DNA of 58,094 bases from a virus: the IMG/VR virus record IMGVR_UViG_3300030110_001023, positions 1-58,094 of that record; one strand, given 5' to 3'. Every line of letters begins with the position of its first letter. Within the stretch, counting starts at the first letter, position 1. Below are positions 3,027 to 58,094 of this stretch, in pieces. A model generated the notes under the pieces. That model made no database searches. It was not told the DNA's origin and worked only from the letters and a program-made list of their open reading frames with translations. The position numbers were made by a program, and so were the translations under genes.

Positions 3027-3043
3027 TTCAACTCCAATCGTAA

Positions 3044-3059: not shown

Positions 3060-3068
3060 AGAAAGTGT

Positions 3069-3088
3069 GCCGCCCCCGAAGGGGCGGC
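3069..3088 (-). terminator. 8-bp hairpin with TTCG tetraloop
   Basis: Read on the minus strand this is GCCGCCCC-TTCG-GGGGCGGC, a very stable UUCG-capped stem 6 nt after the stop of the 203-aa gene. The following bases (ACACTTTCTG) give no T-run, so it may stall, attenuate or protect the transcript end rather than terminate it. Confidence 0.6.
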
Positions 3089-3094
3089 GTTGGA

Positions 3095-3706
3095 TTAGAC
3101 TGCCTGTTTGAGGACAGTCACGTTGTCGTCGTATCCGCTGCCGACCTTGGCGAGGTCAGCGGCGTTCATGACCAATTCCCAGACAGCGGTCTTGCCTTCG
3201 ACGGTATCGACATCGTGACCGTTTGCCTTGGCAAGCTTCTGGGCGAGGGCGACGATCTGCTCTTCGTCGCTCAATTCCTCCTTCGGGTTCAGGAAGGCGA
3301 CCAGCTTGTTGAAGCTGTTGATCTGCAACTCTTCGCAGCGTTGGTTGATCGTGTCGCGAAACTTTCCAGCGGTCAGGTTGTCGCTGTAGCCGCCGTCTCT
3401 TGCGACGTTGATGGTGCTGAGAAATTCAGGATGCTTGGCAAGCTTGAGGGCATTTTCTGCCAGCTTCTTGCCTTTGCCGCTGGCATTCTTCTGCCCCAGC
3501 ACATCGAAGCACACCGCATCGCGGAACTGGCCAGCCTTCTTGCTGCCCTTGCGGAAGTTTTGGCGAGCAGCTTCAACCGCCAGAATGCCGATCAAGGTGA
3601 ACTTGTCAGCCTCGACAAATTGGTTGGCGCGGAATTCAGAGATCTCAGCTTCTTTGCGTGAGATGTCGGCGGCAACGTGAGCAGCTTGTTTGATGATGTT
3701 TGTCAT
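3095..3706 (-). CDS. Conserved phage protein of unknown function (203 aa)
   Basis: Starts MTNIIKQAAHVAADISRKEA at ATG 3706, preceded by GAAGGGAT; the 16 codons further upstream lack a ribosome site. Highly helical, with charged heptad-like stretches (ISRKEAEISEFRANQFVEADKF), suggesting a coiled-coil or helical-bundle protein. It is the first gene of the leftward operon and directly follows the structured non-coding region that probably holds its promoter. No catalytic motif or family recognised. Confidence 0.75.
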   Translation of the reverse strand: MTNIIKQAAHVAADISRKEAEISEFRANQFVEADKFTLIGILAVEAARQNFRKGSKKAGQFRDAVCFDVLGQKNASGKGKKLAENALKLAKHPEFLSTINVARDGGYSDNLTAGKFRDTINQRCEELQINSFNKLVAFLNPKEELSDEEQIVALAQKLAKANGHDVDTVEGKTAVWELVMNAADLAKVGSGYDDNVTVLKQAV

Positions 3707-4410
3707 GTGTGTGATCCCTTCGATCTGAATGTGTTTCGACCATGCTTGGTCCAAGGGGCAGGATTGCCCTCATCAGGGGTGCAGCATCAGCACCCGACAC
3801 TTGCGGGGTGGTCTCTCAGTCAGCAACCGTTCGTTGCCTCGCACGTCCAGCTTGCTATCGCTGGGGGTTCGCGGCGGCAGAGATGCCATCCCCGTGATCC
3901 CCGTTGCCAACGTCCTTTCATCGTTGTCGTGCAGCGGGGTCTCATTCTGGCGGGGCTGTCACACCTTACGCTCTTGTCCGTTTGCTAGGACACCAGCCTC
4001 ATTGCTGATGCGGTCCCTTCCCGGATCGCTGTGGTTCGCTTTGTTTCTGGCTAGCGTTGCCCAGGGGGTGGCCCCCGCTCGGTGACTGATGTGTGCCGCC
4101 GAGGACCTACGTATGGACCCACTCGGTGGGCTTGTCAAACACAAATTGTCACATTATCGAAAGTTTTTTTTCGGTTTGAGGCTGACTGCGGGTTTCCAGT
4201 GGCCACCAAATCCCATTGATTTGTCAGGAGGTGAATTTAAGCTGTTTTTTGGACGTGTTTTTACATGCGCTGCGAATCGTCATTTTCGGGCGCTACTGCA
4301 AGAAAAACGAGTCGGTTTGTAATGTTTTCAATGACTTAATTTTTTTGGGGGTGTCGACCTGGTCGCACGCTGCGTGTCACCCCCGCCTGAAAAAAAAGGA
4401 GATTCGGACG
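3707..4410. other. 704-nt structured non-coding region between divergent operons
   Basis: I find no convincing gene here; the open frames lack ribosome sites and resemble shadows. The left part is GC-rich and full of short inverted repeats: GGGGCA/TGCCC near 3755, GGGTGC/GCACCC near 3777, GCAAC/GTTGC near 3831, GGGGG/CCCCC at 4064-4076. A CCCAC-TCG-GTGGG repeat lies at 4118-4130, inside the spacer of a weak minus-strand promoter candidate (TTGACA at 4139-4134, CATACG at about 4115-4110). The right part (4140-4410) becomes T-rich and holds an orphan AGGAGGTGA at about 4227. Position between divergent operons fits a promoter/operator region, a replication origin or a structured RNA; none is proved. 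Confidence 0.55.
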
Positions 4411-5208: not shown

Positions 5209-5922
5209 ATGGCAGTTCCTGATGATTATTCAGTAAGGCAGATTATGTCGTATGAATGCCATGAATGGTTTCTAAAAAAACACTATGCAAAACGATTGCC
5301 GTCTACTTCATATGCTTTTGGTCTTTATAGAAATAAAGATAGTTTGCTTATAGGTGTTTGTAGTTATGGCAGACCGATGAGTTCAACATTGGTAAGTGGT
5401 TCGTTTAATGGGCTATACCAAGATAATTTTATGGAACTAAACAGGTTGATCATAACAGATGATGCAGAAAAAAACGTACTGTCTTTTTTTGTATCGCAAA
5501 CTTTAAAAAAATTACAGTCACCAAGTGTAGTAGTTAGTTATGCAGATAGCTCTCAGCATCATCACGGATATATTTATCAAGCGACAAATTGGATATACAC
5601 AGGTTTAAGTAAAAAATTTAAAGATTATGCTGTTGAAGGATTAGAACATATGCATCACAGCTCTATTGAAGATAGTGTTGGCAGGTATGACAAGAATAAA
5701 AACATTAATAAACAAGAGTTACTAAAAGAAAGATATGGAGACAGGTTGTACATGAAAGAACGTGCAAGAAAGCATAGATATTTTTATGTATTAGGGAACA
5801 AGAAACAACGAAAAGAAATGGTAAAAAATTTAGCTTATACAGTAAAACCGTATCCAAAGGGGGATAACAAAAAGTATGATGCTTCATACACACCATCTAC
5901 ACAAGGAGTTTTATTTCTGTGA
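5209..5922 (+). CDS. Mom-like DNA adenine modification enzyme (GNAT-fold)
   Basis: 237 residues resembling the Mom group of phage proteins, GNAT-fold enzymes; phage Mu Mom converts adenine in DNA to the N6-methylcarbamoyl form, protecting phage DNA from restriction. Visible signatures are KHYAKR (24-29), a beta-hairpin with SYAFGLYRNKDSLLIGVCSYG (34-54, strand pair typical of the GNAT core), ELNRLII (76-82), and YADSSQHHHGYIYQATNW (111-128), the region that in this family carries the key Asp and aromatic residues. The gene is much more AT-rich than its neighbours, suggesting recent transfer. GGGAG lies 8 nt upstream of the ATG. Its stop overlaps the start of a zinc-ribbon protein. Family placement is from pattern memory; chemistry is inferred. 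Confidence 0.78.
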   Translation: MAVPDDYSVRQIMSYECHEWFLKKHYAKRLPSTSYAFGLYRNKDSLLIGVCSYGRPMSSTLVSGSFNGLYQDNFMELNRLIITDDAEKNVLSFFVSQTLKKLQSPSVVVSYADSSQHHHGYIYQATNWIYTGLSKKFKDYAVEGLEHMHHSSIEDSVGRYDKNKNINKQELLKERYGDRLYMKERARKHRYFYVLGNKKQRKEMVKNLAYTVKPYPKGDNKKYDASYTPSTQGVLFL

Positions 5923-6165: not shown

Positions 6166-6202
6166 CAAATAACATTTTTTTGGAGGTTTGTCAAACTTGT
6201 CA

Positions 6203-6901
6203 ATGAACACTTTCGGTAAACGACTAACAGTCGCTATGAAGAACGCTAAGAAAAGTCAGACTGACATCGCCCGTGATCTATCTGTGGCACAGGCTTCGGT
6301 TAATGCTTGGGTATGGGATAAGAACTGGCCCACCATGAAAAATCTTCTAGCTCTCGAATCTCATCTTGATGTGAGCGTAAATTGGCTTTTGGTAGGAGAA
6401 GAAGGAATGCGAAACAAATTTGATTACTACCCTACCCCAGCTACCATTATCTGCGAACTGGGCAGACGCATAGGATGGGATGCTTGCTCCTTCTGGGAGC
6501 CGTGTAATGGTGGTGGGCATATGAGTGATGGTATGAAGTCTTTTGGATTTAGTGCCATCAGAACGGATATACAGGATGGAGAGGACTTCTTTTCATATGA
6601 TGAGGCACTCCATGAGAACCTGATAACCAATCCACCCTTTCGTCAGATACGAGAGTTTATAGATCATGCCTTTGCGATTGGGGTGAAGCGTATGGCTCTG
6701 GTTTGTCCTGAGCGGTTATGGGCATGTCGAAAAGGAAACGAACAGTTTAGGAGGCACAGACCTGATGTGTTCGCCATGATGGACTGGCGCGAAGATTATT
6801 TAAACAAAGGAGGGAAACCGGATCGTGCCCTCGCTGTTTCTATCTGGAACTCCCCTTGTGCTGATTCTTGTAGCTTTGATATATGGTCGAGAACTTTGTA
6901 A
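6203..6901 (+). CDS. HTH (XRE-type) - DNA adenine methyltransferase-like fusion
   Basis: Residues 1-65 form a Cro/CI-type helix-turn-helix domain (FGKRLTVAMKNAKKSQTDIA, then SVNAWV, ending LDVSVNWLLVGEEG). Residues 70-230 look like an N6-adenine methyltransferase: YYPTP (75-79), EPCNGGG (99-105, in the place of the SAM-binding motif) and NPPF (143-146, the catalytic motif), then LVCPERLW. The motif I glycines are unusual, so activity is not certain. The start is ambiguous: ATG 6203 gives the natural HTH N-terminus but is far from GGAGG (6182-6186). TTG 6197 is spaced better, so the protein may begin there. The palindromic repeat cluster directly upstream suggests self-regulation through the HTH half. 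Confidence 0.82.
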   Translation: MNTFGKRLTVAMKNAKKSQTDIARDLSVAQASVNAWVWDKNWPTMKNLLALESHLDVSVNWLLVGEEGMRNKFDYYPTPATIICELGRRIGWDACSFWEPCNGGGHMSDGMKSFGFSAIRTDIQDGEDFFSYDEALHENLITNPPFRQIREFIDHAFAIGVKRMALVCPERLWACRKGNEQFRRHRPDVFAMMDWREDYLNKGGKPDRALAVSIWNSPCADSCSFDIWSRTL

Positions 6902-34830: not shown

Positions 34831-37800
34831 ATGGGTGAAATAATTGATATTCCAAACATTGGGCCTATTGAATTTCCTGATGGGATGTCTCGTGATGAAA
34901 TCCTAAACATAATTGATAACGAATTACTGCCCGGTCTTCAGCAACAAGAACCACAAGCTCCTCCCGAATATGACTATGCGGCACGGGATGAGATGGGATT
35001 CTTCGAGCGGTTTGGGGAACAGGTTGGTTCTAGCGCCAGCATATTGCGTGGTCTTGGCTCTCAGTTTGTCGAGGCAACTGGTGAAGCCACAGGTATAGAA
35101 GCTCTTGAAGAATTTGGAGAAGAAGGCCGAGAGGCTTTTGAGCAAAGACAGAAAGAAAAAGAAGTACCGACAATACAGTTTACTGACATCAGGAACCTGA
35201 GTGATGTCGGTAGTTGGATAACTGATACGGCTGGTGAACAAGTCCTTCTTAGTGCCCCAAGCATCGCAGGAAGTCTTGCTCTTGGTAAAGCAGGTGCGGC
35301 TATAGGAACAGTGTTTGCTCCCGGCGTGGGCACTGTTATTGGTGGCACAATAGGGGCAACACTAGGTGCATTTATTCCTTCCTTAGTGTTAGGGGTTGGT
35401 GAAGTACAGGGATCAATAAAAGAAAAAGATGAAACGGTAGAGGCACCGGGAGCAGCGTTTCTAGGAGGTAGTGCGATTGCTGCTTTAGACTCTGTCCTTC
35501 CTGGCAAGATAGGAGGTCAGATAGTCAAGAGATTTGGTGCAGATGTTGCTGAAGATGTAGCGCAACGTGCATTGTTGAAACCAATCAAGCGTGAGTACAT
35601 CAAGGCTGCTGGCAAAGGCATAGCTACAGAAGGCATTACAGAAGCCTTGCAAGAAGCTATTGCTGAAGTCACTGCCGTTCAAGCAACTGGCCAAGAGGTA
35701 GACGGGTCACAACTTGCAGAGATAATGATCAATGCTGGTGCTGCTGGTGCATTGATGGGAGGCACCCTCAGGACTGGGGCAGAGCGGTTTAAGAAAACAA
35801 GAACTCAAGAAGAAATAGACCAAGCAAAGGCAGAGGTAGATAAAAGACAGGAACAAAGAGACGAAGAAATAAAAGGTATAATAACGCCAGACCCAGATGC
35901 ACCTCTGCAAATAACATATGAAGAAGCGTCTTTTACCACCGATACCCCAGAGCAAGTCGTTGATACAATTATTGACGAGTCAGTATCACAAGGTGCTGAC
36001 ACAGGACTGGGGCAAGATATAGGCGAAGGCGCACCTATTGGTCCGTTTACAGTAAGACCAATGCCGGGAGGTGGCTTTACTGTTGTGAACGGAGCAGGAG
36101 AAGTACGCACACCTATATTTGGCACCTTAGACCAAGCACAAGAAGCTGCTGATCTGTTAGCTGAAAGGGTTCCAGAGGCCATAGAAGTAGCAGAGATTGA
36201 GTTTACAGAAGCTGCTGCACAACGTGCGCTTGAAGATAATAAGATTAAAGAAACAGAAGCTACTCTCGAAGCAGCGAAAGAAACGATAACTCCTTTGGGC
36301 TTCCTGTCCCGTGAGGACGTAGGTTCTAAAATAGCAAGTCAGATAGATAGGAAGAGAACTTTAGCTGTTTCTTTGAGACCCGGAGAGACTGTGCAGAACG
36401 ATGGCCAGTATACAATTGAAGAGGTAGCAGAGACTGGCGCATCCAATGAAGTTCTTAGTAACATCATTTCTAATAAGAGGCCTGTTACACAAGACCCAGA
36501 CCTCAATGTTTCTGTGAGAGACATAGAAGACTTATCATCTACCAAGAATATACGGTTTGGAGACGATGCCTTTAAGACGTTTTCTCTTAGAACAACAGGC
36601 AAGTCCATGCCTCAGAACATGTCTCAGGTGCAGCGCAATGTTCTGTTTGAAAGCATAGACGCACTACCTGAGTTTGAAAACGAGACATCTATCCCGGTTA
36701 TCAAATACCCACACTTTACATCGAAGCAAATACAGGATGTAGCCAAAGCTATCAGGGAGACGGGAAAAGTTAGCGACAAGCTAATTATGGAAACTCTTGA
36801 AGCCCCCAATATTCGTGGCACAAGACGAAAAGAAATATCCAATGAAGTTCGTAGAGAGTTAGTGCGAAGAGGTGTGCTGCAAAGAGATGGTTCTGTAAAA
36901 AAACGATCTGTTGTAAAACCTTCCTTTGAAAGAAGTCCTGCCCCTAATGTAAAAAAACAAGAGCTACTTCAAAGACTAGAGCCTTTAGCTAGTGCCATAA
37001 ACGAAAGGTTTCAGCAAAGGGTAAAGGCTTTCCCAGAGCTAAAAGATGTTAGGTTAAAATTTAATAATGTAATAGACGATATTGCGACTGGAGAAATACA
37101 GCAAGACGCTGAAGGAGATTTTGTTACTAAACAAGAACAGGGTCAGTTCTTCAAGGCAATAAGACTTGCTGTGAATGTTGTTACTGACCCGTCAAAATCA
37201 GATCAAGAAAATATAGCAGCATTAGCTGAGGTCTTGGATCATGAGTTTATTCACGCAGCTTATGAAGCAGGTGTTGTAACTGATCAAGAGCAAGCATCTC
37301 TCGAATCTTTTGTTAAGAAAGCAAAGCGACCCGGCACTGATGGCAAGACTTATTATGATGATAGAGTTGATGCGCTTGACCCAAATACAAGTGAGGAGTT
37401 GCTTGTAGAAGAAGCTGTCGCAGAGGCGTTCAGAGACTACGCTGCTGGTCGTCGCGTGTTCCCGCCAAAGACACGGAGCATATTCCGAAAGATTGCAGAG
37501 TTTTTTGGTTTGTTAAAGCAAGCTGCTGCTGATGCTGACATTGTAACAGGTAACGAAATATTTCAACGGCTTGATGCTGGTGTAAGTCCGAGCAGTCCAA
37601 AAAGACAGCGTAGTGAAGCTACAGCAACTACGGCTCCGATGGCAAACCTCAAGCCAGCGGATAGGGCAAAGGTAGAAAGTGGTGAGAGGCTTCCTGATTT
37701 TGTCGAGCCTCCTGAAAAGACTAAACAAAAGCTTTCTAGGAAACGTGCCCGTAAAGTACCAGCACCTGTAGGTGAAAATCCTTTCCCGACACCTCCTCAA

Positions 37801-40800
37801 AATGAGATTGATGATCGACTGCGTAGAAAGGGAAAGCGCACAGATGTTGTAGATGCCGTGGTTTCTACAGGACCAAGAAACCCACGCACTGAAATAAAAA
37901 ATGATCAAGGCGATGTTGTTGCTGTAGTAGGCCAGATTACTTTTGATGACTGGATTAACAAGACCGAAGGCCAGCTATCTGATGCTGAACTAGCAGAGGC
38001 TAGACAGTGGTATCCTGACGCAGCCAAGGCATATCAAAAATACTTTGGCGCAGACTGGCCTAATTATCTGGCAGCTTGGTTGATGGCTAATCAACAAGCC
38101 TCACCATCAACAGCAGCTATGAATGCAGTTCGTGCTAGAGAGCAAGCTCTTTCTGGTGTTGAGGTGGAGGTCGAGGCAGGGTTAGCTGCTGAAAAATTAT
38201 TTGGTTTTTGGAACGCAATGGAAAGAGATGGCGAGCTTCCATTGGGAGGGGCGCAAAAACTTTATGACTTTATTGATAGTGGATTACTGCGTGAGACACG
38301 CTCTTGGATGGGCGATGACGTGCGGGGTGGCGCACCTGCCGTTGCTGATGTTCACTCTTTACGAGATACGGGCTTTGTTGATCCAACGTATCAAGAGTTT
38401 TTAAAAGATAATTACAACCTGAATATTGATAGTGACACGTCAGGATCACCAAACGAAAATCAATATGAGCGGTCTGCTGACTTTATGAGATCGCTTACTA
38501 ATTATCTTAATGACATAAAATACAAAGGCGGTGGGTGGACCCCGTACCAAGTGCAGTCTGTCGGTTGGATGGCAACGACCAAGTTTCTGGGTCGTCCCGG
38601 TCAAACAGCAGAAGACTCAATTTTATTTAATATTAGAAATCTTCCGTTTGAATTGGCATTTGGTGAAGGGTCTCCATTGGCAGCGTCACTGCCTGAGTAT
38701 TCTTCTCTACCCGCTATTGGTCAAAAAGAAGTTACGCAGATAGCTGCTGATGCAGCATCTGATTTTGCAAGAGATGTAACGGGCGTTGCAGAAATAAATC
38801 GTGTCCATGCTACTGGTGGTTGGATGGACGACACGATAAATCCAAATATGACGGAGCAACTTGTAGCTTCTCCAGAGGCTACACAAGACATGGCCAGCGT
38901 TCTTGGTTTCTTGTTAGAGCAAGAAAGGATGCTCTCTTATCGGGTGCTGCCTAAGAAAACAACAAAGTCTAAAGTTGCTTTAAAAATACGACCCACAGAT
39001 GTGTCAAAAGATTTGTTGAACAATGACACAAACATGGCCATACTGTGGGATAAGTTGCGTAAGGCTGACCTAGCCAGAAGTAAAAAGGCATCCACTAAAC
39101 TAGCTAAGGACCGGAAAGCACAGCCTGAAGAAGACATATCTCTTGATGAGGTTGATGCTCTTATTCAAGGGTACACCTCGACTGTAGATGAGAACGGTAA
39201 TGCAGCAATGCTTATACTTCTCGACAGTAGGGGTAAGACTTTGGAGTCACGCTTTGAGCCTGATGGAGATGTGTCACAGGCATTGGCTAGAATATCGGAT
39301 GAGATTGGTATCAACTTAGAATTTGAAGCGGCTTACTACGAGAGTGAACTTACAGAAAACGACTGGACGGAGGATCAGACAGGTGACGGTTACTTACAAA
39401 GGATTCATCAAAGATACGGACCCGCTGTTGCAGAAAGGGTCAAGGATTTTAAGCGGAGCGAACTTGAACCGCTACTCAAAGACTCCATTACCAGCGCGAA
39501 ACTCAAGTATGGAAGCGGGCAAAAGTTCTCAAGGAAAAGTCCAACCGCCACGCAAGAAGACCTAGATACATTCTTTGAAAGCATGGGAGAGGAGGGCGCT
39601 CTCCTAGAATACCCTGAAATAGGTGAGAACCTAGATCAATGGATTATGAATGTGGACAGGGGTGCGTTAACAAATGCGCTAAACTCTCCTGAGTATGATG
39701 AATATCAATCTGTTTTATCTGCAAATTTGGAACGAGCCTTTCCTTCTGGACAGATACCAGTATCTCGCACAGAAAATTATGCAGTAACAACTGCTACTGA
39801 CAGACAAACAACAAATTTCCTCGTATCTACAGATGACGTAAAGTTTGCGGGAAATGTAGATGAGAACGAACTTATTGTTCAGTTGCCACCCAGCTTTGGT
39901 TATGGCACTGCCCCCATCTCTGTAAGAGTAAGGCCAGAGCAAGAGAATAGGGTAGACGGCTTACCTGCCACCTATAAAATTCCCAACGTAGGTTCAGTAC
40001 CTACGGAACCCTTTGGCCCAGCTAGGCAAGCTGCTCGTGATTATGGCCAATCAGTAGGCCGAAACATTCCTGACCTTGCGGGTAATTACACATACGAATC
40101 TGTAGACTTCGAGCGAGCAAGTCGTACAGGAAATGCTTATGATGAATTACTAAGCTCACCAGAAGATGAGTTTACTGAAGCAGCATACGATGCTCTCGCC
40201 GAAGAAGTTCTCACTCAGTACGACTTCATAAAAGATACAGGATTGGAAATTGAGTTCTCCCCTGATGACATCGACCCATACCCCAATTCTGCACAGGAGA
40301 TGGTTGAAGACGTAAAGAACAATAATCACATGTACGTTAGTTCGATTGATCAAAGGTATGGTGAAGGGGAAATAGTATCAGAAGATGTGCAGAATAATCC
40401 CATGCTTCGTCTTACTGACGAGTACATATCAGGTCGTCAGGCTAGGGTAGATGACATTCTTCGGTTGGTTCATAATTACTTTGGGCACGTCAAAGAAGGT
40501 TTTAATTTTACAGACTCTGGTAAAGATGCAGCATATGCTAGTCACGCTGTTATGTTTAGCCCCCTTGCTCGCGTTGCTTTAGCAACTGAAACTCGCGGTC
40601 AAAATTCATCAGCAACCTTGAGCAGAAGTAAGAGAGGTCTTTCAGAAGAAACTTCTGTAGTTGTACCACCAAAAATTGGCATTCTTCCTGACTTTGTTAT
40701 TAATGAAGGTATAGAAAATCTTGTTGAGCCTGTTGATGTTCAGGAGCTTCGAGATGAGACAACCTTTAATGTTCAGGGGTCATTTGTCCCTGATCAAAAG

Positions 40801-43800
40801 TTTTCTCGTAAGTACCCACAAGACCCAGCCGATGTTGCTGCAAACAGGTTTGTAAAAAGAGCAAGGGCCGATGGAACTCGAAGCGATAACTGGGGTAAGA
40901 TACCTTTTGCTGGGAAACTTTTGCCAGTACGCGCTGCTTTCGGCAGGAACTACACAACTGGCGGTTATGGTTTAAGACATGCCAGCCTCCATGACGAAGA
41001 CTACCAAGGTGTAGAAGATTTACCTTTTACCAGTTCTGCTAGCGCAATAGGTTCTGCCCTTGATGCATTTACACAAGCGCGGATATCTGGTGTTGACAAG
41101 TCAAGATTTAAATTCAAACAAAATAACAAACGTGATTCACTGGAAATGCGCTGGAGGCCAACAGGATCAAGCACTGATGTTGTTGTGGTATTTGATAGAC
41201 AGATAGACGATAAGTCAGGACAAGAATTTTTAGGCATTACTACATCTTATCCTGACAGCGAGGTTATCCGCGACAAATATAACAGAGAAGAAGTAGAGAA
41301 GCTGAGGAAAGGTGGTGTCCTTGGTCCTAATTTTGCAGCCACTTCACCAACCGCACAGGAAACTGTCTTAACATTTAAGACAAAGAAGCCCACTGATCGA
41401 CCAACGCTCAAGCTCAAGGGTAAAGCAAAACAAAAGTTTTCTCGTGGCAGAGGTGTCAATGATTTATCTCCTGAGTTACAAGAAACTGTCAGACGAACAC
41501 AGGCAATAAATGAGCAAGAGACGGCAGGACAGGCATGGCTCGGTGCCTTGTTTGGTGATTACAAAAACAGCGTTTTGTTTAGTAACAACTGGCAAAGGAT
41601 AAGATCCAAATTTCGTGAATCATGGATAGAAAAGTATGACGTTCTATCTGTTCTTGCAGACAAGGAACAGCGTGAAGTAACGGGAACTTTGGGTGCAGAA
41701 GCAAACGCATACTCTGCTGTGCTTATGGCTGATCAACATGCTCAGATGACGAAGCTTGCGTGGTATGACGGGGTTCCAATTTACGATAAAAAAGAGGGCT
41801 ATACCAGAGTTACCAACACCGTAGATGGTCAACCTATTCGAGGCCTTGCAAAAATACTTGAGCCTCTGCTTGCTGAAGGCAAGACATCTTTATTTGGTAC
41901 ATATGCACAAGCCAGAAGAGCAGAGAGACTTAACGCAGAGCAACGAGACTCTGGGATGACGCAAAGTGACATCGACAACGGCTTATTGCTTGGTGAAATG
42001 AACCCAGAGTTTGCTGCAATCTTTGATGAGTATCAGGTGTGGAACAGTTACCTTGTAAAATACATGGTTGATACGGGTCTTATTACAGCAGAGATGGGTA
42101 AGGTATGGATATCTACCGCTGACTATACGCCATACTATAGGCAAGAACAGGAAGCTGCTGGTGCAGCGCAAGACATGACTTTCTTCTATCCTGATCCTAC
42201 CCTTGGCCCAATTGGACAAGGTGCAGCGGCGTTACAAGGTAATCCCAGAGAAAGAATACCTCTTGATGGAAAGCGACCACCCCCAAAACTTGTCGGCGCT
42301 GGCCGTGCATTTCAACTTGAGATTGATGGGGTAAACCAGCCAGAAGAATATGACTCTTACAACAAGGTAAAGGCTGTTGCCAAAGCTATTGAACGGTCAA
42401 GTCCTGACGCAGAAATAAAAATATATTCAGCGCCTCGCAGGGTAGATGACTTCCTTGACAATGTCGCAAGGAACACTGCTACCGCCATCCAAGGCGGTAT
42501 GAAAAACATTGCGGCACAAAGAGTCATAAGGGCATCACGGTCTCTTGGTTTAGCAAATGAGGTTAATCCTGATCCGTCAGGAGCAAAGCCCCTCAATACA
42601 GTTCAGATAAGAGTGGACGGTGTCGATAGATACTTTGAGATTGTAGATAACGATCTCTACACAAGCATGACTATTTTATCTCAGAACAAAGATATTGCTC
42701 TGGACAATCTTTTTGTTGGTGTCGCATCTACTCCAGCAAGAGTGTTACGAGAGTTAGTCACCAGAGACCCCGGCTTTATGCTGCGAAACATGATGCGAGA
42801 TACCCTTAGTGCGTGGGTAACATCAGGGGTAAATTATGTTCCCATCATAGACAGCGCACGGGGTGTGGTAGATGTTTTAAGAGGCGACGCTTCAAGCGAG
42901 GCGTTACGACGTGCAGGAATCTTTGGCGGGTTTGATTTTGCTGGCACACCTAAAGATATGGCGAAGTATATTGAGAGCAAAACAAAAACAAAATATCCGT
43001 CTGGTGTATTTGAAAAAGCAACCAGTCCTTTCAAGATACTATGGGATGCAACGACTGTCGCAACGAATGCATCCGAAGCAGCAACTCGTGTGGCTGTATA
43101 CAAGAGAGTGTTAGAGAAAACAGGGAACGAAGCACAAGCTATTTTTGAGGCGCTTGAGGTTTTAAACTTTAACAGACGTGGAGCCAACCCTGTTATTCAA
43201 GTAATTACAGCAATTACGCCGTTCTTAAATGCTCGTATTCAGGGCTTAGATGTGCTGTATCGTGCTGGTATAAACAAACGTACAGCTAATCCCAATGCTA
43301 CCCGAAGGGCGTTTGCAGCTAAGGCTTCCCTTATTGCTGGATTGACGGCTTTGTATACCACACTTATGCGAGATCAAGATTGCTATAAGAATGCTACGCC
43401 AGAAGCTAGAGACTTAAATTGGTTTATACCCACACCATTTGACGACACTTGTTTTAAAATACCTACACCGTTTGAGGTTGGTTTCCTGTTTAAAACTATT
43501 CCTGAGAGAATTATGCAATGGTCGTTTGGTTCTGATGTTGGGCGTGATGTTTTCGAGTCCTTTAAAAGGAACGCAACATCTACCTTTGCTGTCACTCCCC
43601 CACAAATATTTACACCTACATTAGAACTTATGGTGAACCACTCGTTCTTTACGGGTAGAGAAGTTGTGCCGTATTACTTGCAGAACTTAGACCCTGATTA
43701 TCGAAAGTATCAGACGACAAGCAGCTTTGCTATTAAGCTGGGCAGAGAGTTAAACATAGCACCGATAAAGATAGATCACTTTATCAAAGGATACTCAGGC

Positions 43801-44250
43801 ACACTGGGAAGTTACGCTCTTGATTTGGGAAGTAGTGCTATTGATGCTTTCGAGCCAACGGATCAACCACTTCCTCCTGACAGGTCATGGTATAACCTGC
43901 CAATGGTGAGGAGTTTCTTCCAAGACCCGAATAGTCGCGGCACCGTTATACAGTTTTATGAGTTAGACCAGCTAGTTAAACAGGCAACGAACACATTCAA
44001 GGCGGCAGAGCGCGAAGGTGATGTGCAAAAGATAGAAGAGATTGTTGAAGATCGTGCGTCTCTCTTGGCTCTCGAAGATGAGTTAAAGAATATTAGAAAC
44101 AGCCTCAACGAAATACGAGAAACAAAGAATCAAATCTTACGGGCACCTCTTGATCCCGCACAAAAGCAAGAACTGTTAGAGGCAGTAAGGCTGCAAGAGC
44201 TTGCCATCACTTCAGCTATTCCACAGTTGCGTCAGATAGGCTTGCAATGA
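34831..44250 (+). CDS. Giant polyvalent internal virion protein with HExxH metallopeptidase-like and LPD38-like regions
   Basis: 3139 residues, about a sixth of the window. Residues 133-216 are Gly/Ala-rich and hydrophobic. HEFIH (804-808, in ALAEVLDHEFIHAAYEAG) followed by a Glu-rich EEAVAEAFRDY (860-870) is a gluzincin-type zinc peptidase pattern. A DDILRLVHNYFGHVKEG to ETRGQNS block (about 1873-1932) recurs in phage polyvalent proteins. Residues about 2620-2815 (LVTRDPGFMLRNMMRDTLSA, ANPVIQVITAITPFLNARIQ) match LPD38, the large polyvalent protein-associated domain. Short KLSRK/KFSRK/KFSRG elements at 967, 1565, 1990 and 2202 separate regions. Polyvalent proteins are thought to be injected and to protect or reprogram the host; which activities are real here is untested. 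The end is a coiled coil. Confidence 0.85.
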   Translation: MGEIIDIPNIGPIEFPDGMSRDEILNIIDNELLPGLQQQEPQAPPEYDYAARDEMGFFERFGEQVGSSASILRGLGSQFVEATGEATGIEALEEFGEEGREAFEQRQKEKEVPTIQFTDIRNLSDVGSWITDTAGEQVLLSAPSIAGSLALGKAGAAIGTVFAPGVGTVIGGTIGATLGAFIPSLVLGVGEVQGSIKEKDETVEAPGAAFLGGSAIAALDSVLPGKIGGQIVKRFGADVAEDVAQRALLKPIKREYIKAAGKGIATEGITEALQEAIAEVTAVQATGQEVDGSQLAEIMINAGAAGALMGGTLRTGAERFKKTRTQEEIDQAKAEVDKRQEQRDEEIKGIITPDPDAPLQITYEEASFTTDTPEQVVDTIIDESVSQGADTGLGQDIGEGAPIGPFTVRPMPGGGFTVVNGAGEVRTPIFGTLDQAQEAADLLAERVPEAIEVAEIEFTEAAAQRALEDNKIKETEATLEAAKETITPLGFLSREDVGSKIASQIDRKRTLAVSLRPGETVQNDGQYTIEEVAETGASNEVLSNIISNKRPVTQDPDLNVSVRDIEDLSSTKNIRFGDDAFKTFSLRTTGKSMPQNMSQVQRNVLFESIDALPEFENETSIPVIKYPHFTSKQIQDVAKAIRETGKVSDKLIMETLEAPNIRGTRRKEISNEVRRELVRRGVLQRDGSVKKRSVVKPSFERSPAPNVKKQELLQRLEPLASAINERFQQRVKAFPELKDVRLKFNNVIDDIATGEIQQDAEGDFVTKQEQGQFFKAIRLAVNVVTDPSKSDQENIAALAEVLDHEFIHAAYEAGVVTDQEQASLESFVKKAKRPGTDGKTYYDDRVDALDPNTSEELLVEEAVAEAFRDYAAGRRVFPPKTRSIFRKIAEFFGLLKQAAADADIVTGNEIFQRLDAGVSPSSPKRQRSEATATTAPMANLKPADRAKVESGERLPDFVEPPEKTKQKLSRKRARKVPAPVGENPFPTPPQNEIDDRLRRKGKRTDVVDAVVSTGPRNPRTEIKNDQGDVVAVVGQITFDDWINKTEGQLSDAELAEARQWYPDAAKAYQKYFGADWPNYLAAWLMANQQASPSTAAMNAVRAREQALSGVEVEVEAGLAAEKLFGFWNAMERDGELPLGGAQKLYDFIDSGLLRETRSWMGDDVRGGAPAVADVHSLRDTGFVDPTYQEFLKDNYNLNIDSDTSGSPNENQYERSADFMRSLTNYLNDIKYKGGGWTPYQVQSVGWMATTKFLGRPGQTAEDSILFNIRNLPFELAFGEGSPLAASLPEYSSLPAIGQKEVTQIAADAASDFARDVTGVAEINRVHATGGWMDDTINPNMTEQLVASPEATQDMASVLGFLLEQERMLSYRVLPKKTTKSKVALKIRPTDVSKDLLNNDTNMAILWDKLRKADLARSKKASTKLAKDRKAQPEEDISLDEVDALIQGYTSTVDENGNAAMLILLDSRGKTLESRFEPDGDVSQALARISDEIGINLEFEAAYYESELTENDWTEDQTGDGYLQRIHQRYGPAVAERVKDFKRSELEPLLKDSITSAKLKYGSGQKFSRKSPTATQEDLDTFFESMGEEGALLEYPEIGENLDQWIMNVDRGALTNALNSPEYDEYQSVLSANLERAFPSGQIPVSRTENYAVTTATDRQTTNFLVSTDDVKFAGNVDENELIVQLPPSFGYGTAPISVRVRPEQENRVDGLPATYKIPNVGSVPTEPFGPARQAARDYGQSVGRNIPDLAGNYTYESVDFERASRTGNAYDELLSSPEDEFTEAAYDALAEEVLTQYDFIKDTGLEIEFSPDDIDPYPNSAQEMVEDVKNNNHMYVSSIDQRYGEGEIVSEDVQNNPMLRLTDEYISGRQARVDDILRLVHNYFGHVKEGFNFTDSGKDAAYASHAVMFSPLARVALATETRGQNSSATLSRSKRGLSEETSVVVPPKIGILPDFVINEGIENLVEPVDVQELRDETTFNVQGSFVPDQKFSRKYPQDPADVAANRFVKRARADGTRSDNWGKIPFAGKLLPVRAAFGRNYTTGGYGLRHASLHDEDYQGVEDLPFTSSASAIGSALDAFTQARISGVDKSRFKFKQNNKRDSLEMRWRPTGSSTDVVVVFDRQIDDKSGQEFLGITTSYPDSEVIRDKYNREEVEKLRKGGVLGPNFAATSPTAQETVLTFKTKKPTDRPTLKLKGKAKQKFSRGRGVNDLSPELQETVRRTQAINEQETAGQAWLGALFGDYKNSVLFSNNWQRIRSKFRESWIEKYDVLSVLADKEQREVTGTLGAEANAYSAVLMADQHAQMTKLAWYDGVPIYDKKEGYTRVTNTVDGQPIRGLAKILEPLLAEGKTSLFGTYAQARRAERLNAEQRDSGMTQSDIDNGLLLGEMNPEFAAIFDEYQVWNSYLVKYMVDTGLITAEMGKVWISTADYTPYYRQEQEAAGAAQDMTFFYPDPTLGPIGQGAAALQGNPRERIPLDGKRPPPKLVGAGRAFQLEIDGVNQPEEYDSYNKVKAVAKAIERSSPDAEIKIYSAPRRVDDFLDNVARNTATAIQGGMKNIAAQRVIRASRSLGLANEVNPDPSGAKPLNTVQIRVDGVDRYFEIVDNDLYTSMTILSQNKDIALDNLFVGVASTPARVLRELVTRDPGFMLRNMMRDTLSAWVTSGVNYVPIIDSARGVVDVLRGDASSEALRRAGIFGGFDFAGTPKDMAKYIESKTKTKYPSGVFEKATSPFKILWDATTVATNASEAATRVAVYKRVLEKTGNEAQAIFEALEVLNFNRRGANPVIQVITAITPFLNARIQGLDVLYRAGINKRTANPNATRRAFAAKASLIAGLTALYTTLMRDQDCYKNATPEARDLNWFIPTPFDDTCFKIPTPFEVGFLFKTIPERIMQWSFGSDVGRDVFESFKRNATSTFAVTPPQIFTPTLELMVNHSFFTGREVVPYYLQNLDPDYRKYQTTSSFAIKLGRELNIAPIKIDHFIKGYSGTLGSYALDLGSSAIDAFEPTDQPLPPDRSWYNLPMVRSFFQDPNSRGTVIQFYELDQLVKQATNTFKAAEREGDVQKIEEIVEDRASLLALEDELKNIRNSLNEIRETKNQILRAPLDPAQKQELLEAVRLQELAITSAIPQLRQIGLQ

Positions 44251-44960
44251 GTGCGTATTCTTTTGCACAGATGGTCAAGAAGCCGTTTCGTCGGGCGTGT
44301 ATCTGGGGCGACAAGAAGTTCTTTGATCCCTCTGTGACTCCATTGTCGCAGCAGCTTGAGGAAAGTTATCCCACCATATTGTCAGAGACACAAAGCATGA
44401 TGCAAAGGTACGATGACTTTGCACCCTTCCAAGATATATCACCTGATCAAACATACATAAGCAACGATGACAGGTGGCGCATGTTCTTCCTGAAGGGAGC
44501 GGGTGTAACCTTCAAGCGTAACGCTGCTCATTTCCCTACACTCATGAGTGTTCTCAACAAGCACAGAGGTGTGGTCTCTGCTTACCTGTCAGTGCTAGGT
44601 CCACAAAAGATTCTCAACCCGCATGAAGGACCGTGGGCTGGTGTTCTGCGAATGCATATGGGGTTGATTATCCCTGATCCAGACAAGTGCCACATCAATG
44701 TGGAGGGCGACAAGTATCACTGGGACAACGGCAAGGTTGTTTTATTTGATGACACATACAATCACTATGCTGTAAACGAAACGGATCAACTGAGAGTAAT
44801 CCTGTTTATAGATTACATGAGACCCATGCGGTTCCCTTACAATCTATTGAACTGGACTGTCATGAAAATGAGTTGGGCTTTCCCGTACATATGGAGGCCA
44901 CTGTGGCGGCACCGACGCTGGTCACAGAAGTTTTATGCGGAGAAGTTACCAGTAACTTAG
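44247..44960 (+). CDS. Aspartyl/asparaginyl beta-hydroxylase-like 2OG oxygenase
   Basis: 237 residues, start by ATGA overlap with the giant gene. LNPHEGPWAGVLRMHMGL (about 129-146), GKVVLFDDTYNHYAVNETDQ (about 167-186) and LRVILFIDYMRP follow the aspartyl/asparaginyl beta-hydroxylase family (Fe(II)/2-oxoglutarate enzymes): first His in the HEGP region, second in YNH, then the Arg of RVILF that holds 2-oxoglutarate. Members hydroxylate Asp/Asn in proteins or modify lipids. Placed between internal virion and lysis genes, it may act on virion or envelope components; target unknown. A hydrophobic/aromatic C-terminus (FPYNLLNWTVMKMSWAFPYI) may touch membrane. Confidence 0.8.
   Translation: MSAYSFAQMVKKPFRRACIWGDKKFFDPSVTPLSQQLEESYPTILSETQSMMQRYDDFAPFQDISPDQTYISNDDRWRMFFLKGAGVTFKRNAAHFPTLMSVLNKHRGVVSAYLSVLGPQKILNPHEGPWAGVLRMHMGLIIPDPDKCHINVEGDKYHWDNGKVVLFDDTYNHYAVNETDQLRVILFIDYMRPMRFPYNLLNWTVMKMSWAFPYIWRPLWRHRRWSQKFYAEKLPVT
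44943..44958. promoter_or_regulatory. 16-bp palindrome, copy 5 (AAGTTAC-CA-GTAACTT)
   Basis: Perfect palindrome at the very end of the hydroxylase gene (encoding KLPVT before the stop), 11 nt upstream of the endolysin start and directly against its GGAG ribosome site. It could control endolysin timing, as an operator or an RNA hairpin masking the site; inferred from position. Confidence 0.55.
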
Positions 44961-53970: not shown

Positions 53971-54028
53971 TGTGTATTCTCCTTAGTACATTGTACGTCT
54001 GATCCGACGTTAGGTTGGTGGTGTTCAT
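53828..54028 (-). CDS. Possible overlapping small protein (66 aa)
   Basis: MNTTNLTSDQTYNVLRRIHN with a good GGAGTGAAC site, but more than half of the frame overlaps the ribbon-helix-helix gene in another frame. The first 20 codons use unshared sequence. It could be real, a leader peptide, or a remnant. Confidence 0.35.
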   Translation of the reverse strand: MNTTNLTSDQTYNVLRRIHNATTVRELCDNRGNEWGSGYWHTVETSLKRQLNPSRRQDQDAYYSGP

Positions 54029-54054
54029 GTTCACTCCTTGTATCACACGGGATG

Positions 54055-54420
54055 TCATTCTTCAACACTGGGTGTGTCTTTGTTGGTTACAAGATGCACA
54101 ATCTCAGCCGACTTGAGCGTTGTCTTTTCCTCTGACATGTGTGCAGCAACCCAATCTTCAAACACTGGCGAGTGCATGATGTCTTCGTAACCCGTCATGT
54201 CCAGGTTGATCTGAAGGTGGTCGCCATTGATGTCCACGCTAGACACATCACATGTGGCAGATATGCCATCAAGCTGACCGATAAATACCATCATGTCTTC
54301 GATACGTTTTTCAAAGATCATGGCAAGATCAGCAAGGCTAAGTTGAGCTATCAAACTGCCCAGAGAATCAGCATGGATAGATCGGGGTGCAGACAGGTAT
54401 TTGTGGCTACTAATATACAT
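54055..54420 (-). CDS. Phage protein of unknown function (121 aa)
   Basis: Starts MYISSHKYLSAPRSIHADSL, overlapping the stop of the preceding gene. LIAQLSLADLAMIFEKRIED and VDINGDHLQINLDMTGYEDI give an alpha/beta fold. No family recognised. The longer frame up to 54507 overlaps the next gene. Confidence 0.65.
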   Translation of the reverse strand: MYISSHKYLSAPRSIHADSLGSLIAQLSLADLAMIFEKRIEDMMVFIGQLDGISATCDVSSVDINGDHLQINLDMTGYEDIMHSPVFEDWVAAHMSEEKTTLKSAEIVHLVTNKDTPSVEE

Positions 54421-54736
54421 CGGGCACGTCCTTCCAGTTGACCCAGCCTTTGCCCCAGCATCTGTCGCATTCGATGGTGACCTCATTGTAGCCAGCCCAA
54501 GGCCCATTTTCTGTGTGGCCTCCGACTTCTACTTCGCTGTCAACTCTGCCCGTGCCGCCGCAATCGGTACACTCAAAGTCAAAGCTGGGTATGGCATCCC
54601 AACTCTCACGCCATCCATGTACGATGTTTGGTTCAACGCCATGTTCAATGGCAAGCTTCACTAGATTGATCGTGTCGTTCTCAACGTCCACGATCTTTGC
54701 TTCTAGCTCCGCAATTTCTTCCTTAACGGTTAGCAT
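54410..54736 (-). CDS. DnaJ-type zinc-finger small protein (108 aa)
   Basis: Helical N-terminus (VKEEIAELEAKIVDVENDTI), then CTDCGGTGR and CDRCWGKGW, two CxxCxGxG repeats as in the DnaJ central zinc domain. GGAGGATCATTAC gives the start at 54736. Such DnaJ-like fingers in phages often support protein folding or anti-termination-type contacts; role unknown. Confidence 0.75.
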   Translation of the reverse strand: MLTVKEEIAELEAKIVDVENDTINLVKLAIEHGVEPNIVHGWRESWDAIPSFDFECTDCGGTGRVDSEVEVGGHTENGPWAGYNEVTIECDRCWGKGWVNWKDVPDVY

Positions 54737-55913
54737 GTAATGATCCTCCTGACTTGTTTGTAAGAACATAGTCCTTCGTAATGGTGCCCAACTCTTTGTT
54801 ACCTCGCTTGTGAGCGCGAACCCACACGCGAGTACCGCCCCTAAGTCTACGGAAATGACCCCGCACATCATGTAATCTTTTGATGCCCTCGGTCTCCCTA
54901 AACTCACGGGGAATAATTGATATGCCTCTGGGCTTTGGCAAGTCAATTTCGATCTGGATGTGCGAGTTACCCCGCCTGAATTTACCAAACTTGTATTGTT
55001 TGTCAGTGCTTGCTTGGCGTGGAGACTGGATAACCCAGTCAAAGTTAAGCAACGCCAGAACAGTAATCAGGAACCGTGCGTCACCCCGAATGCTATCCTG
55101 CCCCACTGCTTGTATTCTAGCAGCAGTCTCTTCGTTCCATTCAGCATTGGCAACGTCCAGATAAAAGTCGATGCCCGGTCCTTGCAGTAAACGAATGTGA
55201 TTGCACAACTGGAACAGTGCTTCTCCAGTTTCTTTTGGGTTGGTCTTCTGATTATGCTGCGCCCACCATCCACCCAGTGCATCAATGCTGACGTTATGTT
55301 CAGCCTTGATATGCTGAAACAACTCATCATCAGACACAGATGTCTGACCTGTAAAGTCCTTGAGGAAATAACGGTGATGCGCCTCAGTAAATCCTGATCC
55401 CTCTTCACACACAGCAAACTGAATTGACAAGGGTGCAGCACCGATCATTTCTTTACCCGAAGCAGGGTCATTGAAGGGGACAAAGGGTGTGCCAATAAAA
55501 CTGTCACCCTCATACCCCGTGTGGGGTGCGTCTTCTAACAGATATCCCACGGTGTGGGATATGGCTGACCAGTCAATGGGATTATCCTGAGCAAACTTGT
55601 CCCTTGCTACCCGCTGCAAAACCTCCTGACGCAGGTGTTCATTCCACTCTATCCAAGTCAAATCGTTTGGCATACGAGCGAAGGGCAGCATCCGCAACAG
55701 TTCGCTGCAAGTCGCGATCATGCTCTGCTCCATTGCAAACTCAAGAAAGCGATCATCCAGCACGAACCGTGTTGCCTTACGCATGTCGATATATTTCTGG
55801 TGGCAGCGATCCTTGAACGCTTGGATGTGGCGCACCTCTTGTGCTGCGAAGACACCCTTCTTAGGGTTGTTCAAGGCAGCGATGACATCGTCAGCTAGAT
55901 TGAACTTAGCCAT
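54723..55913 (-). CDS. Conserved phage protein of unknown function (396 aa)
   Basis: FNLADDVIAALNNPKKGVFA, AAQEVRHIQAFKDR at the start, and a conserved-looking end HDVRGHFRRLRGGTRVWVRA followed by HKRGNKELGTITKDYVL. The end pattern (VRGHxR...VWVRxHxRG) recurs in hypothetical proteins of phages and may be a nucleic-acid-binding region. The repeated palindrome lies 17 nt upstream and AGGAGG precedes the ATG. The 3' end overlaps the DnaJ-type gene. I do not recognise a function. Confidence 0.75.
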   Translation of the reverse strand: MAKFNLADDVIAALNNPKKGVFAAQEVRHIQAFKDRCHQKYIDMRKATRFVLDDRFLEFAMEQSMIATCSELLRMLPFARMPNDLTWIEWNEHLRQEVLQRVARDKFAQDNPIDWSAISHTVGYLLEDAPHTGYEGDSFIGTPFVPFNDPASGKEMIGAAPLSIQFAVCEEGSGFTEAHHRYFLKDFTGQTSVSDDELFQHIKAEHNVSIDALGGWWAQHNQKTNPKETGEALFQLCNHIRLLQGPGIDFYLDVANAEWNEETAARIQAVGQDSIRGDARFLITVLALLNFDWVIQSPRQASTDKQYKFGKFRRGNSHIQIEIDLPKPRGISIIPREFRETEGIKRLHDVRGHFRRLRGGTRVWVRAHKRGNKELGTITKDYVLTNKSGGSLHANR

Positions 55914-55930
55914 ACAAACCTCCTATTTAT

Positions 55931-55988
55931 GAGTCATCAGTAACTTGTAAGTAAATGGGCGGCATCCACATCAGTGAACACCGCCCAT
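55931..55988. promoter_or_regulatory. 16-bp palindrome, copy 6, plus upstream hairpin
   Basis: GAGTCAT-CA-GTAACTT (55931-55946) lies 17 nt before the start codon at 55913. Beside it ATGGGCGG (55955-55962) pairs with CCGCCCAT (55981-55988) around an 18-nt loop. The order hairpin, palindrome, ribosome site, start repeats that seen at 601-718 and 3026-3088. The rest of the 190-nt gap (to 56102) shows no gene. Confidence 0.58.
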
Positions 55989-56102
55989 GCAAATCGCGAG
56001 AATCGAAAGGAACCCGCACCGTAAACCACAATGCGAGTAGAAAAGCTCCTCCATTTGCTGACGGGGTTATAATCGGGGCACTCGCCGTCTAATCCCCATC
56101 AG

Positions 56103-56420
56103 CTAGGGACCGACGTACCGCCAGACCTTGATCTCTCTACTGTGATTAGTCTTTCGCTGAGAGTTTACACGCTCACCCGTGAACTCCCAGTCCTTGCCCC
56201 TGAAGATAGAGCCAGCAGCATTGCCCAAGCTATCGGTGATACCCTCTCTGGCAAACGCCCTGCTTACATCATCAGCAGTCACGGTGCGGCTGTCTCGCAG
56301 CATGGCGATCTGCTTTGCCACATGCCTTGCGTGGGTCAGCAGGTCATGCTTGCTGGCAGCAGCAGATGCCATGCCCTCTTCTTTGAGGCGCTGTGCCTCA
56401 GCTAGATCAAACAAGTCCAT
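56103..56420 (-). CDS. Phage protein with VTADDV and LGNAAGSIF motifs (105 aa)
   Basis: MDLFDLAEAQRLKEEGMASA, then THARHVAKQIAMLRDSRTVT, ADDVSRAFAREGI and LGNAAGSIFRGKDWEFTGER. This is a widespread small phage protein that reads like a winged-helix domain; function unknown. ATG 56420 is spaced correctly from GGAAGGG; two upstream in-frame ATGs are not. Confidence 0.74.
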   Translation of the reverse strand: MDLFDLAEAQRLKEEGMASAAASKHDLLTHARHVAKQIAMLRDSRTVTADDVSRAFAREGITDSLGNAAGSIFRGKDWEFTGERVNSQRKTNHSREIKVWRYVGP

Positions 56421-56422
56421 TG

Positions 56423-56566
56423 TCATCCCTTCCATGCTATGATGCCTTGCTCAACGCTGGGTGCGAAGTGAAGCAGCCCAACGGTGATTGTAGTCCACAA
56501 AAGAATAGCGATGAAGGAGAGAGCGATCTCTCTCCAATCACGCTTGGCCCAGTCATGTTGTCTCAT
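56423..56566 (-). CDS. Small membrane protein (47 aa)
   Basis: MRQHDWAKRDWREIALSFIA: a charged start, then one transmembrane helix (ALSFIAILLWTTITVGLLHF). GGAGGTGACAG gives a very strong start at 56566, and the stop abuts the next gene's start region. Below the usual 60-residue cut-off, but well supported by the ribosome site and coupling. Function unknown. Confidence 0.68.
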   Translation of the reverse strand: MRQHDWAKRDWREIALSFIAILLWTTITVGLLHFAPSVEQGIIAWKG

Positions 56567-56579
56567 CTGTCACCTCCAA

Positions 56580-57830
56580 TCAGGCAGCGACTTGGACAAC
56601 TGTTGCCCAAGTCGCGTCCTCTTCGATTGCATCCAACCATCTCTGGTCCCGCACACATGCTGCAAGCAGCGTCGGCAGTGCTGGCTCAGGGATGTCTTTA
56701 TAGATATCCTCCATGTCAGAGAAGATGATGATAGCATCAACGTCGAGTTGTTGCTCATCGACATACTCCAGAGCCTTGCAGGTGTTTGTCCCACCGTAGT
56801 AGCGGGTGCGGTCAATCTCATCACCGGGGTCAACGACCTGATGCTCCTTGACCGTGTGGGTGAACTTGACCACATGGCTGGTGATGTCGAACTCTGAGGT
56901 GATCGACTGCAACTCCTCGCAGAACTGGGCGAACATCTCGTCATCGACTGATGATGACACGTCAATCAGAACTGCAATCTCACCGCCCACGTCACGGCGG
57001 CGGGTAGGCAGCGGCACACCCACCGCACGGGACCGACGACCAAGGCGCTGGTAGGACGTGCCAGACGGGCGACCATCCAGCAAGAACCTGCGAAGCACAC
57101 CCCGCCAGTCAACGACTGGCTTGCGTAGCAGCGTGATGTGCTGCTTGAAGGGGCTGTCTTCCTTGCCAGCCTCGCCGCTGATCATGGCGGCATTGAGGAC
57201 GATCTCAGTCCACTTGTCCTCCTCCTCCTTGATCTCTGAGGCGGTGAGACCAGAGCCGTCATCAGATGTGCCATCGATCACCACCCCGTGGCCCTGCATG
57301 TCCACTGGCTGGTCCTTGCCCGACTGGGCAGGGGCATCCCCAGAGCCGCTGTTTTCTTGGGGTTGATCGTCACCACCCTCAGCATCACCCTGAGAGTCAC
57401 CCTCCGATTCGCCAGTACCCTCTGGCTCTGGCTGGTCATCGAACAATTTGCGGTAGATATCTTCCGCTGACTGACCGCGATATGCCAAGTCGATCAGGCC
57501 GTCCTCAGGTAGGGAGAACCCAGCATCAACTAGGATGCTGTTGATGGCGTAGTCAGCAGCCGTGTTCCAGTTATTGGGATCACGCTGCCCCCTGCGAAGA
57601 TGGTGCTTAAAGATCACATGGCACACCTCATGAGCGAGGACGCCCTTGAGGTGAGCGTTAGTGTGGCCATCCACAAACGCAGGGTTGAACCAGATAGAGG
57701 AACCATCTGTCGCCATCGTGTCAAACTGATCTGACTCGATCAGGTTGAGCCGCATGGCGATGTTGCCGAAGAACGGATTGTCCAGCAAAAGCTGCGTCCG
57801 TGCTGTCACGATCTTGTGTTGTGCTGACAT
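56580..57830 (-). CDS. DUF2201-type metallopeptidase/VWA-domain protein (MoxR partner)
   Basis: 416 residues. N-terminal putative metallopeptidase with HEVCHVIFKHH (67-77), an acidic disordered linker (about 128-180, EPEGTGESEGDSQGD), and a C-terminal VWA-like domain with MIDAS DVSSS (290-294), GGTNT (346-350) and FSDMED (370-375). This is the DUF2201 arrangement. Members are encoded with MoxR AAA+ ATPases; here the MoxR gene is on the same strand at the other window end. AGGAGG lies 8 nt before ATG. Likely a chaperone/adaptor complex; substrate unknown. Confidence 0.9.
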   Translation of the reverse strand: MSAQHKIVTARTQLLLDNPFFGNIAMRLNLIESDQFDTMATDGSSIWFNPAFVDGHTNAHLKGVLAHEVCHVIFKHHLRRGQRDPNNWNTAADYAINSILVDAGFSLPEDGLIDLAYRGQSAEDIYRKLFDDQPEPEGTGESEGDSQGDAEGGDDQPQENSGSGDAPAQSGKDQPVDMQGHGVVIDGTSDDGSGLTASEIKEEEDKWTEIVLNAAMISGEAGKEDSPFKQHITLLRKPVVDWRGVLRRFLLDGRPSGTSYQRLGRRSRAVGVPLPTRRRDVGGEIAVLIDVSSSVDDEMFAQFCEELQSITSEFDITSHVVKFTHTVKEHQVVDPGDEIDRTRYYGGTNTCKALEYVDEQQLDVDAIIIFSDMEDIYKDIPEPALPTLLAACVRDQRWLDAIEEDATWATVVQVAA

Positions 57831-57841
57831 GTCAATACCTC

Positions 57842-58094
57842 CTACTGACCAATAAAGTCATCGATTTGGTTCATGATCTCGCGGGCATCTGCCGCGACTT
57901 CCTGACGCTTGGCACCATCCTCCTTGAGGGTGGCAGCATCAGTCTCAGTGAGACGCTGGCCGATCTCGCGGGCCAACTGCTCAAGGCGAGGGTCATCACC
58001 CACGTTGAGGGACGGCAGCAACTCTGCGATGTCTCGCACGTTGCCGACCAAACTGTCGTAAAGCTTGGCACCCTTCTTGTCGGGATCGTATGCC
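57842..58094 (-). CDS. C-terminal fragment of unknown phage protein (cut by window edge)
   Basis: The open frame enters from the right edge (AYDPDKKGAKLYDSLVGNVR) and ends at 57842 after 83 codons. Helical and acidic, ending EIMNQIDDFIGQ. It lies directly before the VWA gene. The gene fragment at 1-601 is its probable N-terminal part. An in-frame ATG at 58051 lies inside the domain and has no ribosome site. Confidence 0.75.
   Translation of the reverse strand, partial: AYDPDKKGAKLYDSLVGNVRDIAELLPSLNVGDDPRLEQLAREIGQRLTETDAATLKEDGAKRQEVAADAREIMNQIDDFIGQ

Follow-up and report, generated by a model that had tools for sequence, protein, structure and literature searches.

Modules and separators of a 3139-residue polyvalent protein

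The window analyzed here is a 58,094-nucleotide stretch, positions 1 to 58,094 of IMG/VR virus record IMGVR_UViG_3300030110_001023, with a late operon encoding terminase, portal, major capsid, and tail proteins together with a DNA-ejection-protein-like gene. One gene on the plus strand (34831..44250, stop included) encodes a polyvalent protein of 3139 residues, and its translation is free of stops, as an earlier sequence-only reading of this DNA had it. That reading also listed four short elements, KLSRK at residue 967, KFSRK at 1565 and 1990, and KFSRG at 2202, all of which we find exactly there. Here we describe how these separators are conserved, how they are placed relative to a predicted zinc peptidase (zincin) domain of the same chain, and whether they could be cleavage sites. 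All protein features given below lie on the plus strand.

Near the N terminus, module N1 (residues 79-350; 35065..35880) matches the virion structural protein family phrog_6958 and also particle proteins of LUZ24-like Pseudomonas phages. Based on this match and the position of the gene in the late operon, the polyvalent protein is predicted to be an internal virion protein that is ejected into the host. The putative zincin domain, Z (residues ~765-902; 37123..37536), holds the predicted zinc site HEFIH at residues 804-808 (37240..37254). It is followed by VEEAVAE at residues 859-865 (37405..37425), in which conserved glutamates of the following helix include a candidate third zinc ligand; the motif and its downstream glutamates stand as first described. 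Separator 1 (KLSRK, residues 967-971; 37729..37743) leads into module B (residues 972-1564; 37744..39522), which is also present in L102, L109, and L113, elsewhere in the chain order. Separator 2 (KFSRK, residues 1565-1569; 39523..39537) is followed by block I (residues ~1570-1702; 39538..39936) and by the FGH module (residues 1703-1976; 39937..40758), a phrog_3170-like domain with conserved H..FGH..EG..F and ETRGQNS motifs. Separator 3 (KFSRK, residues 1990-1994; 40798..40812) lies in the linker from FGH to module D (residues 1995-2201; 40813..41433), and separator 4 (KFSRG, residues 2202-2206; 41434..41448) precedes the E module (residues 2207-2540; 41449..42450), which is common to nearly all LPD38 relatives. 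Pfam LPD38 (PF18857) matches residues 2850-3011 (43378..43863; E 4.4e-33, 115.4 bits against a cut-off of 27), inside a wider conserved C-terminal module at ~2532-3099; an LPD38-like region had been placed at 2620-2815, which is wrong. In relatives, modules Z, B, FGH, and E turn up in other orders and contexts, the picture being one of shuffled modules joined in one very large chain. The FGH module is a widespread phage domain that occurs nearly stand-alone in mycobacteriophages (gp103-type).

The separators are not expected from composition. The pattern K[FL]SR[KG], found four times in the real protein, arose once in 19 of 2000 composition shuffles and never twice (99% had none), and an unsupervised count, corrected for all words tried, ranked QKFSR first among the over-represented short words of the protein. 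No [KR][FYL]S[RL] occurs in 39 other window open reading frames (ORFs; 11,338 aa). Among close relatives, 16 IMG/VR loci with the C-terminal part and 6 with the middle part were compared, and in those of at least 66% identity each of the four sites is present wherever its region is present. The forms seen are TKQKLSRK or TAEKFSRK at site 1, GQKFSRK or NREKFSRR at site 2, PDQKFSRK or PDERFSRK at site 3, and AKQKFSRG or AKEKFSRGG at site 4. The linker at site 1 is rich in insertions and deletions, yet K[FL]SRK is retained, and an alignment of the site contexts, a check first suggested, places all four conserved sites within variable linkers. Directly behind site 2, a block of ~125 aa (1577-1702) has been gained or lost between flanks of 65-71% identity: block I is present in the window protein and in L003/L012 and missing from L014/L019.

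AlphaFold2 models agree in part. In the model of residues 1555-2560, FGH is confident (~1704-1975) and module D has a moderate alpha/beta fold (~2019-2144), with sites 3 and 4 in low-confidence linkers between folded modules. Beyond the zincin helices, the model of residues 630-1575, which covers the zincin and module B, is poor; sites 1 and 2 fall in its unmodelled stretches, which is weak evidence. Domain-by-domain prediction, also proposed at the outset, therefore puts sites 3 and 4 in linkers and says little on sites 1 and 2. Neither model, FGH included, had a relative in the PDB, and the 630-1575 model had viral relatives of unknown function. With no match and a poor model of zincin and module B, fold assignment by PDB comparison was abandoned.

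A border motif in distant LPD38 relatives

Starting from an alignment of the C-terminal module with 12 sequences, we collected 80 loci from viruses and 80 from bacterial genomes, most of the latter prophage-like, and dereplicated them to a discovery set of 81 representative proteins (<65% identity). In the N-terminal parts of these relatives FSR, YSR, and likewise YSL are conspicuous, and among [FY]?R words only serine is clearly enriched. Counted non-redundantly, [FY]SR occurs 138 times in the N-terminal parts vs 71.6 expected, 16 vs 31.6 in the C-terminal module, and 47 vs 59.6 in 507 other ORFs; the scrambled word [FY]RS is not enriched. With flanking residues, the signal sharpens: across the 81 representatives we counted 60 [KR][FY]S[RL] (11.0 expected), 58 [FY]S[RL][RK] (11.0), and 27 [KR][FY]SL[RK] (0.7), with flat controls. 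We refer to matches to either of the first two patterns as core sites. In all-against-all comparison, 72% of [FY]SR and 79% of [FY]SL sites fall at homology breaks, compared with 42% for random positions and 27% for [FY]RS. The 60 aa ahead of the E module hold [FY]S[RL] in 36/78 proteins and the scrambled word in 1/78, so that about half of the distant relatives carry the motif at the same spot as separator 4; near-misses (RYSI, RYSV, RFSK, RLSL) occupy the same place. A motif private to the window was rejected, as relatives carry it. Among cultured phages, PTXU04, phiARM81mr, and 1.232.O have [KR][FY]S[RL][RK] sites in small number or not at all. It is well supported that the four elements generalize to [KR][FY]S[R/L][RK] and mark module borders across LPD38-type phage polyvalent proteins.

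The fourth position is either R or L, and each protein tends to use one of them. All 15 discovery proteins with at least two core sites are pure for R or L (15/15, shuffled mean 6.8, P=1e-4), and in these multi-site proteins the sites are spaced 97-1028 aa apart (median 270). Only three changes of flavour occur on a tree of the C-terminal module, which indicates that flavour is a lineage trait. In R-flavour proteins it is mostly a bulky letter (F, V, M, I, T) that follows the HE of HExxH, and in L-flavour proteins mostly a small one (A, G, S), a trend spanning only three independent switches.

The sites also keep to one side of the zincin. A profile of the window's zincin region found HExxH homologs in 31 of the 81 representatives; HExxH is retained in 31/31 discovery homologs counted and in 37/39 of the validation set described below, with HExIH conserved in the distant-homolog alignment. 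In the 31 HExxH proteins, the 43,820 aa that follow the zincin hold 84 core matches and the 23,696 aa that precede it hold 3 (p=8e-13; where two matches overlap at one site, both are counted). Proteins with Z-type or HEWxH zincins carry core matches at a higher density than the rest (p=5.5e-6, ignoring relatedness). The zincin region had no Pfam zincin match, and no zincin relatives were found in bacterial genomes at the sensitivity of the search used.

The R/L form had been noticed in the discovery set itself, which risks circularity; predictions were therefore written down before we fetched the proteins of a validation set, 45 representatives that share <80% identity with the discovery set (median 60%). 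All pre-specified predictions held in these 45 further proteins. We counted 53 [KR][FY]S[RL] and 52 [FY]S[RL][RK] (5.8 expected for each) and 32 [KR][FY]SL[RK] (0.4 expected), with scrambled controls reaching 0.5-1.0 of expectation. Of the sites, 63 lie downstream of the zincin and 5 upstream (p=1e-8), 15/16 multi-site proteins are pure for R or L (P=1e-4), the motif stands ahead of the C-terminal module in 27/45 proteins vs 0/45 for the scrambled word, and 97/105 core matches (92%) lie at homology breaks vs 32% of random positions. As the two sets belong to one viral group, the validation speaks to generality within LPD38-type proteins only. The suggestion that the elements mark borders, made from one protein, is strongly supported by conservation, module gain and loss at a site, homology breaks, the anchor ahead of the E module, and the validation set.

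The motif could be a by-product: a frozen linker, the tail of a single domain type, or a recombination site at the DNA level spread by module shuffling. Some sites do stand behind a GxFDPxNPDI tail, with which one effector domain type probably ends. This tail precedes only 9/85 discovery and 9/72 validation core sites, about one in eight to nine, and 67 and 50 of the other core sites, respectively, stand in non-redundant contexts; a conserved tail of one domain type was rejected on this ground. Site codons vary within a chain, serine being encoded by TCN or AGY (21 pairs the same, 26 different). This variation implies selection on the peptide and led us to reject a DNA-level recombination signal. 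Flavour is moreover uniform across different modules of one chain, and the FGH module lacks the sites outside the LPD38 chassis: 51 FGH proteins without LPD38 in the same ORF have 30 [FY]S[RL] vs 35.3 expected and 2 [KR][FY]S[RL] vs 4.3, whereas 12 with LPD38, which overlap with the discovery set, have 31 vs 14.5 and 21 vs 1.8. The sites thus belong to the LPD38 chassis and not to the FGH module, which likewise dismisses the idea that effector modules, or polyvalent proteins generally, carry them. A by-product origin is very improbable.

Possible self-processing of the chain

These comparisons show that the sites are border signals of the LPD38 chassis, conserved at the protein level; they lie downstream of the zincin, with a single flavour in each protein. 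Their recurrence in dozens of distantly related viruses suggests that the chain is cut into separate proteins at them. The best reading, in which we place somewhat better than even confidence, is an injected polyprotein cut at the sites by its own zincin. The gene product would consist of the zincin in its N-terminal part, then effector modules, then the LPD38 C-terminal unit, and each module linker would hold a punctuation site: [KR][FY]S, then R or L, and in most cases R or K after that. The chain's own zincin would cut there, most simply at the S|R or S|L bond, releasing pieces of ~969, 598, 425, 212, and 935 aa. It is often the residue following the cleaved bond that determines what a zincin cuts, and some zincins are known to prefer Leu there and others Arg; on these grounds the R/L flavour could be a natural specificity switch of the zincin. 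Eukaryotic RNA virus polyproteins carry a protease in the chain and a repeated short site between products, with a lineage-fixed site flavour. If our reading is right, the two would work alike, with no homology claimed; unlike those polyproteins, the chain here belongs to a bacterial virus and would be packaged cargo.

Cleavage by the protein's own peptidase domain had been raised by the sequence-only reading. The downstream placement of the sites, their uniform flavour, their domain-sized spacing, and their zincin-dependent density argue for it, and several observations weigh against it. Flavour tracks the zincin about equally to the C-terminal module (Mantel r 0.47 and 0.51; partials 0.09 and 0.25), with only the three switches, so that flavour follows lineage and the attempt to single out the site reader by co-variation was rejected. 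Five zincin- and LPD38-bearing proteins (L233, L240, L245, L220, L268) are without the core motif; they form one group with a zincin, FGH, and LPD38 architecture, and in the three of them examined there was no alternative repeated word. Other misfits are the absence of a site between block I and FGH in the window protein and, in the validation set, two close spacings and one protein of mixed R/L flavour. The zincin itself is assigned from HExxH and conserved glutamates, without a structure match; its helices were modelled with poor confidence and found no PDB match. The cutting as such, the same-chain zincin as the cutter, the bond, and the timing (during assembly or after injection) are our inference.

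One further point against a same-chain cutter is that HExxH-less proteins retain [KR][FY]S[RL] (11 vs 3.0 expected), which would fit cutting by another enzyme, either the phage assembly (prohead) protease or a host protease. There is precedent for this in P1, where the prohead protease Pro cuts both DarA and the capsid protein (PMC12810830, PMC9024508). The known P1 prohead sites differ, however, with the cut after E120 (PMC9024508). In the window, the 39 other ORFs hold no further HExxH, and Pfam/PHROGs searches of the phage genes named no separate protease, although the major capsid gene partially resembles fused capsid-protease families. Another enzyme would also leave the placement of sites after the zincin and the zincin-linked density unexplained, and we regard it as decidedly unlikely.

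A second possibility is that the sites remain uncut and serve in the linkers as signals for docking or handling, for instance for the capsid, portal, or core protein; once bound, they would help to fold the chain into the head or to thread it out at ejection. That sites depend on the LPD38 chassis and that flavour follows the C-terminal module lineage no less closely than it follows the zincin would suit such signals, a capsid-targeting signal is known in P1 DarB (PMC9024508), and the N4 virion RNA polymerase is delivered uncut, according to Iyer et al. (PMC5512222). Against this, a docking signal is needed once per chain, not at successive borders, and should not avoid the region ahead of the zincin. 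We consider uncut signals unlikely.

Processing by the chain's own zincin has a counterpart in the work of Iyer et al. (2017), who propose that zincins of polyvalent proteins process the chain into functional units (PMC5512222). Their phage-type polyvalent proteins are likewise giant multidomain virion proteins with an HExxH zincin and LPD38. The parts of the paper that were searched mention neither a cleavage site nor an interdomain motif (PMC5512222); here we find a repeated border motif in two lineage flavours and test it across the LPD38 group. We found no report of the site motif in the open-licence literature, which does not prove that none exists. The P1 proteins DarB, DdrB, and DarA are likewise internal, injected antirestriction proteins, and DdrB and DarA are described as processed (PMC5512222, PMC12810830). 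DarA differs in being cut by the prohead protease, and DarB (2255 aa) in having only an isolated RLSRK (241) and YSL (1312) and no border series. The N4 virion RNA polymerase is likewise an ejected virion protein, of ~3500 aa with a zincin domain, and differs in being packaged unprocessed, as Iyer et al. report (PMC5512222); this too weighs against self-processing.

For LPD38-type phages at large, we hold it to be marginally on the probable side that a self-processing polyprotein uses a lineage-specific site code to release interchangeable effectors, with new recruits gaining border sites. If true, tailed phages would have a general polyprotein strategy whose cleavage code can be read. Processing by zincins has been proposed since 2017, and the border motif adds a concrete, testable site. 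The R and L versions offer natural swap experiments for the protease-site code, and with the motif, hundreds of giant phage proteins that lack annotation could be divided into units suited to structure prediction and assays.

Genomic setting of the polyvalent gene

The stop of the polyvalent gene overlaps the start of the next gene in an ATGA. This neighbor (44247-44960, +) encodes an aspartyl/asparaginyl beta-hydroxylase (PF05118, 3e-42), which adjoins the polyvalent gene, with at least 82% identity, in nearly all close relatives with a long enough locus. A search of six genomes for LPD3 gave no match, and its control search was likewise empty. At both window ends (1-4000 and 54000-58094), where an AAA ATPase (731-1717, -) and a DUF2201/VWA putative metallopeptidase (56580-57830, -) are encoded, GC content rises from ~0.45 to 0.56. 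Given the GC rise and these genes, the ends are probably the host flanks of a prophage. A gene for a Mom-family DNA modification protein (PF25680) adjoins that for a CI-like repressor (5209-5922, +, and 6188-6901, +), a pair that suggests a temperate phage.
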